From the NCBI RefSeq assembly GCF_013019105.1, contig NZ_BLTE01000009.1, forward strand, positions 62,001 to 126,000: a DNA stretch of 64,000 nt. The letters are read 5' to 3'. The stretch is from Fundidesulfovibrio magnetotacticus (GTDB lineage Bacteria > Desulfobacterota > Desulfovibrionia > Desulfovibrionales > Desulfovibrionaceae). Under the pieces are notes generated by a model, which saw only the letters and a program-made list of their open reading frames with translations, was not told the DNA's origin and made no database searches. Shown in pieces: positions 9,964 through 26,810 of this stretch. The position numbers and the translations under genes were made by a program. Numbering within the stretch: position 1 is the first letter of the stretch; the number at the start of each line of letters is the position of its first letter.

Positions 9964-10956
9964 TCAATGCTGCTCGCGCGGGTTGAAATCCGAAATCCTT
10001 GCCAGCTCCTCCCAGAGCGCGCGCTGCGGCTCGGTGAGGTTCTTGGGCGTCTGCACCATCACGCGCACGAACTGGTCGCCCCGCCCGGCCTTGCCCAGCA
10101 GGCCCTTGCCGCGCAGGCGCATCTTGCGCCCCGAGCCGATGCCCGGCGGAATGGTCATGTCCACCTCGCCGTCCAGGGTGGGCACCCGCACCGTGGCCCC
10201 CAGCGCGGCCTCCCAGGGAGCCAGCGGCACGTCCACCACCACGTTCACGTCCTCGAGCTTGAAGCGCGAGTGTGGGCGGATCATCACCCTGAGGTACAAA
10301 TCCCCCGCCGGGCCGCCCCCGAAGCCGGAATTGCCCTGGCCCGCCAGGCGGATCTTCGCGCCGTCGCGCACTCCGGCCGGGATGTTCACGGAGAGCGTCT
10401 TGGGCTTGAGGTAGGGCCTGCCGTCCGGGCCGTAGGCCTCCTCCTGGAGCGTGATGGCCTTGGAGCCGCCGTGGTAGGCCTCCTCAAGGGTAAGCTCCAG
10501 CGCGGCCTCGGCGTCCTGGCCCCGGGAGGGGCGGCGCTGCCCCTGACCGCCGAAGCCCTGGCCTCCGAAACTTTGGCCTCCGAACCCGCCCATGCCCCCG
10601 GACGCGCCGAAGATGGTCTGGAAAAAGTCCGAGAAGCCGCCCATGTCGAACTGCTGCCCGCCGGGGCCGCCCGCGCCACCGAAGTGGAAGCGCATGTTCT
10701 CGTAGCCCGGGGGCGGCTGGAAGTTCTGGCCGTGCTGCCAGTTGGGGCCGAGCTGGTCGTAGAGCTTGCGCTTCTCGGGGTCGCGCAGCACCTCGTAGGC
10801 CTCGTTGATGTCCTTGAACTTGCCCTCGGCCGTGCAGTCGCCCGGGTTGAGATCGGGATGGCACGTGCGGGCAAGCTTTTTGAAGGCCTTGGAAATCTCC
10901 TCCTGGGAGGCCGACTTGGTGACGCCCAGGAGCTTGTAGTAGTCTTTGTATTCCAC
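9964..10956 (-). CDS. cbpA: DnaJ-class co-chaperone, CbpA-like
   Basis: 330 residues with a GTG start at 10956, supported by AAAGGA at suitable spacing and by the J-domain beginning immediately (EYKDYYKLLGV). The J-domain carries HPD at residues 33-35. A Gly/Phe-rich linker (about 85-165, with repeated FGGQ/GFGG units) and the two C-terminal substrate-binding domains follow. The CxxCxGxG zinc domain of true DnaJ is absent, which makes it CbpA type. It should stimulate DnaK ATPase. First gene of the cbpA-cbpM unit, with a promoter visible at 11001-11028. Confidence 0.88.
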   Translation of the reverse strand: MEYKDYYKLLGVTKSASQEEISKAFKKLARTCHPDLNPGDCTAEGKFKDINEAYEVLRDPEKRKLYDQLGPNWQHGQNFQPPPGYENMRFHFGGAGGPGGQQFDMGGFSDFFQTIFGASGGMGGFGGQSFGGQGFGGQGQRRPSRGQDAEAALELTLEEAYHGGSKAITLQEEAYGPDGRPYLKPKTLSVNIPAGVRDGAKIRLAGQGNSGFGGGPAGDLYLRVMIRPHSRFKLEDVNVVVDVPLAPWEAALGATVRVPTLDGEVDMTIPPGIGSGRKMRLRGKGLLGKAGRGDQFVRVMVQTPKNLTEPQRALWEELARISDFNPREQH

Positions 10957-22644: not shown

Positions 22645-22901
22645 GGGCTCAACGAAGGAGAGCGCAACACTGACGGAACAGAATTTTTTAGTCGATCCTT
22701 GCGGCGCGGTCAAGGATTCGAGCCCATCCGGCGGCATCGCGCTGGCCTTGACCCGTCGGAGCGACCCCATGTCGCGCATTGACAACATAGGCAAAACCGG
22801 CCAACGAATAGATAACCCGCGCATGGCGTCCCGCGCGGCCAACTCCAACCCAAGGCGCCACAAGCCGGCGATCATCCCACGGATCGCTTCACTCGGGAGT
22901 C

Positions 22902-25208
22902 ATGCAGGAGCATCCCGGCCCCCCTCCCCTCTTCTCCCGGCCCCCCAAGCCGCTCTGCCCCCCCCGCAAGGCTCTCGCCTTGCAGGTTCTGGCGTTGGTT
23001 TGCGCGTTGCTTCTCGCGTCGGTCGCGGCGGCCGGGCCGACGCCATCCTCGCATGGCCTGGAAACCGTGCGCCTGCAGCTGAAATGGCGCCACCAGTTCC
23101 AGTTCGCGGGCTACTATGCGGCTATCGAGAAAGGCTTCTTCCGCGACGAAGGCCTGGCCGTGGAGCTCGTCGAGGGCAATCCCGGCGTAACCCCCTCCCA
23201 GGTGATTCTGGACGGTCAGGCCGATTTCGCCGTGGACGCGCCCTCCATCGTCATCCAGCGCCAGTTGGGCGCGCCCCTGGTGGCCCTGGCCGCCATCTTC
23301 CAGCATTCGCCCACCGTGCTGCTCACCCGGCGCGACTCGGGCATCCTCACCCCGCAGGATCTGCGCGGCAAGCGCGTCATGTTCACCCAGCTCACCGACC
23401 CCGAGTGCCTGGCCATGCTCTCCAACGAGCACGTGACGCTGGATTCCCTCACCATCATGCCCCACAACTGGAGCATCGACGACCTCATCATGGGAAAGGT
23501 GGACGCCCAGACCGCCTACCTGACCAACGAGCCCTACCAGATGCTCCTGCGCGGCGTGGAGCCCGGGGTGATCAACCCCCGCAGCTACGGCATCGACTTC
23601 TACGGCGACTGCCTGGTGGCCACCGAAGCCAAAGTGCGCGAAGACCCACGGCTCGTGGAGGCCTTCCTGCGCGGCGTGCAGCGCGGCTGGCGCTACGCCA
23701 TGGAAAACCGGGAGGAAATCGCCCGACTGATCCTGGCCAAATACACCCCGCGCAAGAGCCTGGACGCCCTGCTCTACGAGGCGCGGGTCATGGACGAGCT
23801 CATCAAGCCCGAGTTCGTGGCCATCGGGCACATGAACCCGGAGCGCTGGAGACACATCGCCGACGTGTACGTGAGGCTCGGCATGATGCCGCGGAACTAC
23901 AGCCTGGAAGGTTTTTTCTTCTCCGACATCATCGAGGAGGCCGCGCGCCGCGAGCAGCGCATCTTCCGCAACGTCCTGAGCGTCCTGGCCGGGGCGGTGC
24001 TCCTGGCCGCCGGGTTCGGCATCGCCCAGTGGCGCTTCGGCAAGCGCCTCGCACGGCAGGTGCGCGAGCGCACCGAGGCCCTGGCGGCCAGCGAGGAGAC
24101 CTTCCGCAGCATCGTGGAATCCTCCCCCGTGGGCATGCTCTTCTTCCGCAAGGGGGACGACGGCCTCTACCGCCTCACCGGCGGCAACCCGGCCGCAGAC
24201 CGCCTCACGGCCAGGCCCCACCGCGAGTACCTGGGACGCGCCCTTGCCGAGACCTTCCCGGACCTGGAAGCGACGGATGCGACGGCGGTCGAGACCTCAC
24301 AGCGTTCCGTGGAGACCCGGTCCGACGAGGGGCTTTTCAGGGGGCTCTACGACGTGCATCTTTTCCATACCGGGCCTGAAGCCCTGGCGCTCATCTTCCA
24401 GGAGGTCTCCGAGCGCAGGCGCATGATGGAGATGCTCATCCAGACCGAAAAAATGATGAGCCTGGGCGGGCTGGCCGCCGGCATGGCCCACGAGATCAAC
24501 AATCCCCTGGGCGGCATCATCCAGAGCGCCCAGGTGGTGCTCTCGCGGCTCACCAGGGACTCGGAGGTGAACCGCCAGGCCGCCATGGCCGCCGGTTGCG
24601 AGATGGAGGCCGTGCGCAGCTTCCTCACCGCGCGCGACATCCTTTTCATGGTGCAGGCCATGCGCGATTCGGCTTTGCGCGCAGCCCAGATCGTTGGGAG
24701 CATGCTGGAGTTCAGCCGGGCCGGAGACGTCTCCCTGTCGCCGCTCTCGCTGCCGGCGGTGCTGGACAAGGCGGTGGAGCTTTGCTCAACGGACTTCGAC
24801 CATCAGAACAAGTACGATTTCAAGGGCGTGCGCATCCTGCGCGAGTACGAGGCGCACCTGCCCCCGGCTCTGGGCAACCGCACGCAGATCCAGCAGGTGT
24901 TCATGAACCTCATGGCCAACGCGGCCCACGCCATGGCCGGGCAGGGCGATCCGGAGATCGTCCTGCGCGCGCGGCGCGACGGCGATATGGCGCGCGTGGA
25001 GATCGAGGACAACGGCCCGGGCATGACGGAAGACGTGCGCCGCAAGGTGTTCGAGCCCTTCTTCACCACCAAGGGCGTGGGCGAGGGAACGGGCCTGGGG
25101 CTCTCGCTCTCCTACTTCATCATCACCAACAACCACAACGGAACCATCGAGGTGGAGTCCGACCCCGGGCGCGGCTCGCGCTTCATCATTCGGCTGCCGC
25201 TGGCCTGA
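22902..25208 (+). CDS. Sensor histidine kinase with NMT1/SsuA-like periplasmic binding domain and PAS
   Basis: 768 residues. Signal or anchor helix at about 24-45; an ABC-substrate-binding-like domain of the NMT1/THI5 (thiamine precursor, sulfonate) type at about 50-340 (LQLKWRHQFQFAGYYAAIEKG at its start); membrane helix at about 350-372; PAS at about 395-505; then HisKA with H530 in GMAHEINNPLGG and a HATPase with DNGPGM and GTGLGLSLS. It should sense a small ligand outside and autophosphorylate inside. No response regulator gene is adjacent. Its kinase half closely resembles that of the gene at 47637. Confidence 0.88.
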   Translation: MQEHPGPPPLFSRPPKPLCPPRKALALQVLALVCALLLASVAAAGPTPSSHGLETVRLQLKWRHQFQFAGYYAAIEKGFFRDEGLAVELVEGNPGVTPSQVILDGQADFAVDAPSIVIQRQLGAPLVALAAIFQHSPTVLLTRRDSGILTPQDLRGKRVMFTQLTDPECLAMLSNEHVTLDSLTIMPHNWSIDDLIMGKVDAQTAYLTNEPYQMLLRGVEPGVINPRSYGIDFYGDCLVATEAKVREDPRLVEAFLRGVQRGWRYAMENREEIARLILAKYTPRKSLDALLYEARVMDELIKPEFVAIGHMNPERWRHIADVYVRLGMMPRNYSLEGFFFSDIIEEAARREQRIFRNVLSVLAGAVLLAAGFGIAQWRFGKRLARQVRERTEALAASEETFRSIVESSPVGMLFFRKGDDGLYRLTGGNPAADRLTARPHREYLGRALAETFPDLEATDATAVETSQRSVETRSDEGLFRGLYDVHLFHTGPEALALIFQEVSERRRMMEMLIQTEKMMSLGGLAAGMAHEINNPLGGIIQSAQVVLSRLTRDSEVNRQAAMAAGCEMEAVRSFLTARDILFMVQAMRDSALRAAQIVGSMLEFSRAGDVSLSPLSLPAVLDKAVELCSTDFDHQNKYDFKGVRILREYEAHLPPALGNRTQIQQVFMNLMANAAHAMAGQGDPEIVLRARRDGDMARVEIEDNGPGMTEDVRRKVFEPFFTTKGVGEGTGLGLSLSYFIITNNHNGTIEVESDPGRGSRFIIRLPLA

Positions 25209-25385
25209 GGGCGGTCCGGCCGTGTGCCAATCCCCAGGATGTCACAGCTGAACTACATCACGGCACATACGCAGATGCATATATATAAAAACATTTCAGC
25301 GCCACCTGAACATATCTTCAAGAAGCCATATTGATCGGCATAGCATGCGGCAAATCCAGAACAAACCCCAGGACAAGGAGTCACC

Positions 25386-25829
25386 ATGCTGCAGTTCAAC
25401 GCACTAGTCCAACTACCGAACGAGACATCTAACCACCAAGTACTTATGGTGTGCAACGAATGGATCGCTGGAAGCCCTCACTCAAAACTAAAGCGTGAAC
25501 TAGAAGAACACAAACACGAAGAACACGGATACTCTATCACAACACCACAGGAAGAGTTCACTTCGGAAAGAATAATTGCCGACGAATACGACCTGGTTGG
25601 AGTAAAGTATTGTACATTTGACGATGACGGCAACATCTGGCGCAGTGAAATTGTCAGCAATAAACGCAACACCGCACACAATATTTCAATTCGAGTATAT
25701 TCAGAATCGCATTCCCCCCAATTTCAAAAACCAGACGCAAAAAAACCTTATCTAATCAAAATGCTCCTGGAAAATTTGGATCGGCAATTGATAATGGCTG
25801 GCAGTGCCTCCCACAACCTCGGTTTCTAA
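25386..25829 (+). CDS. Unknown protein, 5' part of a frameshifted gene
   Basis: 147 residues if translated without shifting; the first 131 form the N-terminus of a larger protein. The start has a good AAGGAG ribosome-binding site. The sequence is mixed alpha/beta with no signal peptide and I do not recognise the family. After LLENL (ending at 25778) the frame continues only as a 16-residue tail to TAA at 25827, whereas the -1 frame continues a natural-looking protein for 337 residues. An AT-rich TATATATAAA about 100 bases upstream may be a -10 region. The gene stands alone between a sensor kinase and a convergent transporter gene. Confidence 0.6.
   Translation: MLQFNALVQLPNETSNHQVLMVCNEWIAGSPHSKLKRELEEHKHEEHGYSITTPQEEFTSERIIADEYDLVGVKYCTFDDDGNIWRSEIVSNKRNTAHNISIRVYSESHSPQFQKPDAKKPYLIKMLLENLDRQLIMAGSASHNLGF
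25772..25778 (+). promoter_or_regulatory. Candidate -1 ribosomal frameshift heptamer A_AAT_TTG
   Basis: In the reading frame of the upstream part the codons are GAA AAT TTG GAT, so A AAT TTG fits the X_XXY_YYZ slippery pattern. A -1 slip here gives ...LLENL-GSAIDNGW... and joins the two open frames. A strong downstream pseudoknot or upstream Shine-Dalgarno stimulator is not evident. A single lost G in the TTTGGA run would look the same. Confidence 0.4.
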
Positions 25830-26791
25830 CAGACCACGACATCGACATCGCAGCAAAGATAATCAATGGAACATCAGAACACAGGCTTCCATGCATCTAC
25901 ATAAGTCGAAATGACTATGGACAATGCCAGACTGACCCGATCAAGACAGCACAACTCCTTCATGGAATTGCACACATCCTCGTCGAACCCGACAAGCGCT
26001 TTTCATTCACATTAAAAACCAAAACTAATTCTGAAAACCCTTATGGCGGTGCTATCGGCATCCACTTCCGAGGCCATAGCGGGGGATACAAAATCCTACC
26101 AGAACAACTCTATAGCAGCCCACAAAAAAGAGAGCGGTACATCTTCAACAAGCTAAGAGACATACTCAATATTCAAGCCATACCACAAGAAAACACTTGG
26201 CTTCACCTACAAGAGTGCCTCACAAAAAACAAAATTGACAAACTAAAATCAGAAAAAACGTCCTCCATTGACCAATACATCTCTGCATTCGACTCCGAGA
26301 ACAAAGAACTAAAAGAGAAGATAAAAAGCCTTGAGAAGCAGAACGACATCCTTGAGCGTCGCAATCTCGCCCTTGAGCAATCTATCACCCCACAGACTGG
26401 GGTATCCATAATCCAACGGGGACCAGGAGCAGATCTCTATCCCGACGAAGCCAAAGATATAATTCTCGATACACTTAAGCAAACGATTGAGAATCTTAAG
26501 AACGGTAGCCGACGCAAAGACATTCTTTCTGAAATAGTTGACTCAAACAAAGAAGGAGGACAAAGAAGGTTGATTCTCGAAGAATTGCGCAAAATATTCC
26601 CGGAATATCGATCTATAACAGAGAAAATGAAAAGATCACTCGAAAGGCTTGGACTAACAATCACAGGAGACAACCACCCAAAATTAAGATTCGAAAACAA
26701 CGACAAATACTCTGTCACACTTTCTGCAACCCCGAGTGACGTCAGGACAGGTCAAAACCAAATCAGCAACATCAAATTACAACTGCTATAA
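25778..26791 (+). CDS. Unknown protein, 3' part of the frameshifted gene (-1 frame)
   Basis: 337 residues after the shift; with the first part about 468. This frame is open from 25628 and contains no ATG, GTG or TTG until 26570, so it has no start of its own and must be read as an extension of the upstream ORF or be dead. Features in order: RFLTDHDIDIAAKIING, a LPCIYIS strand, a central segment with NPYGGAIGIHF, a heptad coiled coil (about 26270-26390), and a helical C-terminus with GSRRKDILSEI, EEYRS-like repeats and a final basic region. Not recognised. The constraint on the reading frame argues against long decay. Confidence 0.55.
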   Translation, partial: GSAIDNGWQCLPQPRFLTDHDIDIAAKIINGTSEHRLPCIYISRNDYGQCQTDPIKTAQLLHGIAHILVEPDKRFSFTLKTKTNSENPYGGAIGIHFRGHSGGYKILPEQLYSSPQKRERYIFNKLRDILNIQAIPQENTWLHLQECLTKNKIDKLKSEKTSSIDQYISAFDSENKELKEKIKSLEKQNDILERRNLALEQSITPQTGVSIIQRGPGADLYPDEAKDIILDTLKQTIENLKNGSRRKDILSEIVDSNKEGGQRRLILEELRKIFPEYRSITEKMKRSLERLGLTITGDNHPKLRFENNDKYSVTLSATPSDVRTGQNQISNIKLQLL

Positions 26792-26810
26792 TTTTTACGA
26801 TAGTTTACCC

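Follow-up and report, generated by a model that had tools for sequence, protein, structure and literature searches.

A probable recent frame break in a putative horizontally acquired, defence-like gene of Fundidesulfovibrio magnetotacticus

The window analyzed here is a 64,000-nucleotide stretch of the Fundidesulfovibrio magnetotacticus genome. An AT-rich gene within it (25386-26791, forward strand) is probably a horizontally acquired copy of a mobile gene that was recently broken in frame by a small indel; we give this reading a probability of about 0.6. The ancestral state would have been an AT-rich, defence-type, horizontally acquired gene with the uninterrupted frame of its family, ~470 codons long. 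A recent small indel in the run-rich stretch near 25772-25778 would then have shifted the rest of the gene by -1. From such a broken allele, the ribosome would make an N-terminal product of 147 residues, and the downstream 337 codons, which offer no ATG, GTG, or TTG before 26570, would be silent save for background slippage. Seen purely as a frameshift, the case is unremarkable.

Reading frames and composition

The frame-0 ORF (25386..25829, + strand) begins with an ATG at 25386 behind the ribosome binding site AAGGAG (25375..25380, + strand; pairing energy -8.8 kcal/mol) and ends with a TAA at 25827-25829, giving 147 aa, as an earlier note made from the letters of this DNA had stated. That note described 131 natural-looking residues followed by a junk tail, and the comparison with relatives agrees: residues 1-131 match the N-terminal domain of the family, and the last 16 residues are an out-of-frame tail. 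The -1 frame had been said to be open from 25628. This is incorrect because stops occur at 25646 and 25661; the frame is open for 375 codons from 25664 to 26788 and closes with a stop codon (25664..26791, + strand). Family homology in this frame extends from ~25778 to the end and covers a middle domain, a coiled coil, and a C-terminal dsRBD/HicA-like domain. The reported lack of ATG, GTG, or TTG in the -1 frame before 26570 was confirmed, the first such codon past the last upstream stop being the TTG at 26570, and by arithmetic a shift at the heptamer described below does give the predicted 468 residues.

The gene is AT-rich, as previously claimed, with a GC content of 0.43 compared to 0.63-0.75 in the 62 one-kb blocks of the window that lie outside it. 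Over the gene, the -1 frame contains no stop in its 375 codons, frame 0 contains 16, and the third frame contains 26. Codon-position GC is 0.53/0.31/0.44 in the N-terminal piece and 0.50/0.35/0.45 in the C-terminal piece read in the -1 frame; read in frame 0, the C-terminal piece gives 0.35/0.45/0.50, unlike the N-terminal piece. With a stop-free -1 frame, matching codon-position GC, and both pieces colinear with one family, the frame change is more than chance.

Relatives of the gene

A search with the single sequence found relatives on plasmids only (eight records). Three of them were inspected: proteins of 473 aa (5.9-kb Klebsiella plasmid) and 485 aa (Skermanella), both annotated as one CDS, and a Citrobacter plasmid copy that is cut short. 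The cut copy (L005) adjoins an ISKpn6 transposase gene, and KPC-3 is present on its plasmid as well. In Klebsiella (L003), small plasmids of the ColRNAI type carry the family, with the gene placed behind a TraY-domain/RelE-ParE pair. The N-terminal piece alone had no match among plasmids. Within seven genomes of the same genus, and likewise when the single sequence was compared with 395 genomes of the phylum, the only match was in the source genome itself; phages and viral contigs gave no match at all. A first genome_contigs scan with the single sequence returned nothing, and chromosomal relatives surfaced only with alignments.

When 348 genomes of the class were searched with an alignment, 10 had matches, including the source genome; the others comprise six full-length single-frame genes, a truncated gene containing a TGA, a fragment at a contig end, and a coiled-coil match. 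Scanning genome_contigs with six of these sequences identified 27 loci in proteobacteria, Bacillota, and archaeal MAGs, and 26 of these have one open frame over the whole match (L034 and L041 begin at contig ends). L035 comes from an uncultured Christensenellaceae MAG; a further search within its bacterial family found matches in 7 of 46 genomes and added one full-length, single-frame relative (L051). Two genomes from the same family as the source genome (G600 and G544) carry gene copies that encode the same proteins as L024 of Humidesulfovibrio and L033 of Desulfovibrio piger.

The six class genes, the 27 genome_contigs loci, the two uncut plasmid relatives, and L051 make up 32 near-full-length relatives after four duplicates are dropped. 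This count leaves out L014 (internal TGA and early end), L015 (running off its contig), L016 (the coiled-coil match), the cut Citrobacter copy (L005), and L052-L056 (fragments or distant matches). An alignment of 30 relatives was built without the duplicates L009, L011, L012, and L013 and without L035; L051 was found later. Intact relatives are single proteins of about 450-490 residues.

The earlier note had named homologues with one intact frame at this point as the observation that would speak against its reading, and 31 of the 32 near-full-length relatives are of this type. Relatives with one intact frame make mutation or error likely and leave programming a small remainder. The frame-0 piece of the window gene aligns to positions 1-131 of the relatives and the -1 piece to positions 131-469, in that order. 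Across the 30 aligned relatives the two pieces meet in neighbouring columns without a gap, and the intact relatives run colinear across the break, as in a recent frame-disrupted pseudogene. Among 39 columns conserved in at least 85% of the 30 relatives, the window gene keeps 33; the other six carry substitutions (T to S, V to I in two columns, L to T, P to R, and F to L). Because these columns are kept and the -1 frame is free of stops over its 375 codons, decay has barely begun, and the disruption is therefore young, or else absent in the organism itself. Over the C-terminal piece, the closest relative found has ~33% identity.

The switch zone

In the alignment with the 30 relatives, frame 0 carries the homology through KPYLIK..LLEN and the -1 frame takes it up with GSAID.., which puts the switch after the KPYLIK motif and before the Asp conserved in GSAID, within 25758..25790 (+ strand). 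The in-frame heptamer A_AAT_TTG (25772..25778, + strand) lies inside this zone, so the X_XXY_YYZ motif noticed earlier does sit where sense changes frame. An in-frame A7 run 11 codons upstream of the heptamer (25739..25745, + strand) was ruled out as a slip site because the family homology, including KPYLIK, is still in frame 0 beyond it. In the AlphaFold2 model of one relative (L022), helix 122-131 ends at the switch position, which separates the N-terminal domain from the middle one.

In-frame X_XXY_YYZ heptamers are found at 96 places in 14161 codons of the 30 relatives (0.0068 per codon) and at 0.0069 per codon in codon-permuted versions of the window gene; given this background, the heptamer is a weaker coincidence than the frames. 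The arithmetic chance of one falling in a 6-codon zone is ~4%, and higher if base runs attract indels. AAATTTG occurs near the site in none of the 30 aligned relatives, L036 has AAATTTA at the same place inside an unbroken frame, and any in-frame heptamer at all appears in a 14-codon zone in 3 of the 30. Downstream RNA structure, evaluated by pseudoknot-free folding, was no better than in shuffled sequences (z +1.43, +0.33, +0.07, and +0.58). No internal Shine-Dalgarno-like stretch stands out; the best has an energy of -3.3 kcal/mol, which is equalled by 225 of 1396 windows of the gene.

The sole frame-changed case among the 32 relatives is L035 (10001-11433), a distant member with its own -1 change. 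This change lies at an in-frame A_AAA_AAA (an A7 run at 10366-10372), ~5 codons before the place of the window's change when counted from the KPY motif, and the sequence after it shows no RNA structure (z +0.53 and +1.31). Counting against a broken copy are the ~4% coincidence of an in-frame heptamer at the site, the separate -1 change of L035 at A_AAA_AAA, the position of the switch at a helix end between domains, a plausible place for a programmed short product to end, and the limit of ~33% identity among the relatives in which the split was compared over the C-terminal piece.

Genomic setting and origin

A stretch of 4.1 kb (22715..26810) that includes the gene is missing at the same place from all six other genomes of the genus, based on flank comparison; the matched flanks are 0-124 bases apart in five of them and ~1.0 kb apart in G006. 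The C-terminal piece has no match anywhere in these six genomes. The 22715-25208 part of the stretch contains a gene that fuses an NMT1-type binding domain to a histidine kinase (NMT1/HisKA, 22902-25208), which has typical codon-position GC. This kinase gene and a gene with no Pfam hit are the two neighbours of the window gene.

Low GC content is common in the family. The gene falls below its surroundings by >0.02 in 22 of 27 loci and by >0.1 in 19 of 27, with differences of up to about 0.3 (for L034, L035, and L041 the measurement covered part of the gene or began at a contig end). Two species of a single genus have the gene (L085:7427-8827 and L086:7216-8622) beside a ~433-aa ORF that resembles a TRAP transporter large subunit. 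Because both copies adjoin the same kind of ORF, they may represent a shared insertion.

Alternative explanations

A sequencing or assembly error, with the gene truly in one frame as in its relatives, is the most serious competitor to a recent indel, and we regard it as the less likely of the two. An otherwise intact gene, with its conserved columns largely kept and no further stops in the -1 frame, would be expected under such an error; short runs occur at the site (AAAATTTGG), and the genome is a draft assembly (58 contigs, 4.46 Mb). Antonov et al. (PMC3711429), who predicted frame-changed genes in 1106 prokaryotic genomes, assigned 146 of 19,430 clusters to recoding and expected unclustered singleton frameshifts validated by BLASTp to be sequencing errors rather than genuine indels. 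As a control for the assembly, 31 congener ORFs were matched to the window (20 and 11 ORFs from two congeners, with best matches totalling 10014 and 6466 aa, shadow ORFs included), and no clear within-gene frame change was found. Five candidate splits in this control were rejected because at least one stretch of each pair is in a shadow frame by codon-position GC. Over the matched regions, the control would mildly favour a sound assembly. Furthermore, runs of 4, 3, and 2 bases are, to our knowledge, not classic short-read error sites. In our judgement mutation is to be preferred over error, and we infer that the change is biological rather than a product of the assembly.

The earlier note had considered programmed -1 ribosomal frameshifting at A_AAT_TTG, yielding products of 147 and 468 residues, and this now appears improbable. 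In its favour, an in-frame heptamer does coincide with the homology switch point, both frames are well kept, and the two pieces join without a gap. L035 makes its own -1 change within this inter-domain zone, and the heptamer it uses, A_AAA_AAA, is frequent in insertion sequences (PMC4066793). According to PMC4066793, 39 of 64 heptamers in Escherichia coli exceeded twice the background even without stimulators. However, 31 of the 32 near-full-length relatives need no shift, the AAATTTG motif is not conserved near the site, and the tests for stimulators, both downstream structure and an upstream Shine-Dalgarno stretch, were negative; the L035 site, too, lacks downstream structure. A slippery heptamer is thus present, with neither a detected stimulator nor a conserved split among relatives that reach at most ~33% identity. 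The motif itself also speaks against efficient slippage, as UUG after AAU is a mixed purine/pyrimidine codon. According to PMC4066793, slippage in E. coli is most efficient where the A-site tRNA can re-pair cognately; it is reduced at codons that mix purines and pyrimidines, UUG among them, and at motifs with mixed X/Z, although UUN codons taken together outperform CCN and GGN codons.

It is likewise doubtful that this is a defence gene family in which a -1 change at the boundary of the N-terminal and middle domains switches output from a short N-terminal product to the full protein and back. Such a toggle would operate by slippage at A_AAT_TTG here and, independently, at A_AAA_AAA in one Christensenellaceae member, or by reversible indels at these short runs, which we consider quite unlikely as well. 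Split genes of such a kind exist, but two separately translated proteins with a self-started C-terminal part are scarcely credible here, as the -1 frame has no ATG, GTG, or TTG in 25664-26569 and the relatives are one continuous chain.

Function of the intact family

The frame-broken copy leads to a family that is worth more than the frameshift itself. This uncharacterized family is found in proteobacteria, Bacillota, and archaeal MAGs, is mostly AT-rich relative to its surroundings, occurs inside two DISARM operons, shares part of its N-terminal half with the candidate antiviral family HEC-07, and has a dsRBD/HicA-like end. Nine of the 10 sequences in alignment A2 match the PADLOC model HEC-07 (PDLC04161) at E up to 1; the best match (E = 6.1e-10) spans about 107-361 of the 553 model positions, making the similarity weak to moderate and partial. 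The frame-0 piece of the window gene had no hit when compared alone against PADLOC. We read HEC as Hma-embedded candidate, following PMC12988326; our literature search found no paper naming HEC-07 as a defence gene.

At L031:9564-10970, the family gene lies between DrmMI and DrmA, with DrmB following and DrmD upstream. At L033:10001-11389, it follows DrmMI and precedes four more ORFs and then DrmA and DrmB, again with DrmD upstream. L043 has an IetS-like neighbour, and L027 has a type I restriction-like neighbour. Three scans against PADLOC at E 1e-5 covered a chosen subset of 135 listed neighbours and gave no hit for 9 of 10, 6 of 10, and 2 of 8 proteins; because most scanned neighbours had no hit, many relatives lie outside recognizable defence loci. 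The defence-like role proposed earlier gains support from the HEC-07 similarity and from two relatives inside DISARM operons. The window copy is not in such a locus, judged by its two neighbours.

In the AlphaFold2 model of L022 (pLDDT 85.9, pTM 0.62), the N-terminal domain is rich in beta structure, the middle domain runs beta-alpha-beta-alpha-beta-beta-alpha, and a long helix precedes a C-terminal domain of the order alpha-beta-beta-beta-alpha. The C-terminal 60 residues match phrog_2053 with E values of 2.5e-7 for the window piece and 7.4e-11 for the Klebsiella protein; a search for a Pfam HicA match found none. Comparison with solved structures produced 29 matches up to E 1, the best at 0.039 and mostly over the coiled coil; with a cut-off of E 0.001, Foldseek found nothing in PDB or BFVD. 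Weak matches to a thioredoxin-like protein (7ysi) and to PDI b' fit the topology of the middle domain but are no more than leads, and a CxxC motif is absent from 28 of 30 relatives. For the -1 piece, hits to DNA_methylase and MTase_II (E 6.5e-4 to 0.012) were dismissed as chance: the Pfam one is under its cut-off, the two plasmid relatives show neither, and the matched regions take in the last part of the middle domain, the coiled coil, and sequence past it. Taken together, we infer that the intact family acts in anti-phage defence, perhaps by means of its RNA-binding-like (HicA/dsRBD) C-terminal domain. As an antiviral protein of this type, it would bind or cut RNA through that domain.

Comparison with known systems

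Like the IS1/IS3 transposases and dnaX, the window gene has an in-frame X_XXY_YYZ heptamer at its frame change. It differs from them in that no stimulator was found, in the less efficient class of its motif, and in a split that its relatives do not have in common.

The likeness to HEC-07 is one of profile similarity over the N-terminal and middle parts of the family; the -1 piece of the window gene itself matches this model only at E 0.012, over the coiled-coil region. The DISARM class 1 operon (drmD, drmMI, drmA, drmB) is linked to the family by location, with the family gene 81-85 bases 3' of drmMI (measured between ORF ends) in two Desulfovibrio genomes. However, the family gene matches no DISARM core model, and the two neighbours of the window copy are the histidine kinase gene and the gene with no Pfam hit.

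The C-terminal domain resembles the small HicA-like/dsRBD domains (PDLC02910; phrog_2053) in its alpha-beta-beta-beta-alpha fold, as predicted in the L022 model, and the nearly invariant His of the family is kept in the window. In contrast to the HicA toxin, a small stand-alone mRNA interferase that is partnered by HicB, the domain here is fused to the C-terminus of a protein of ~470 residues.
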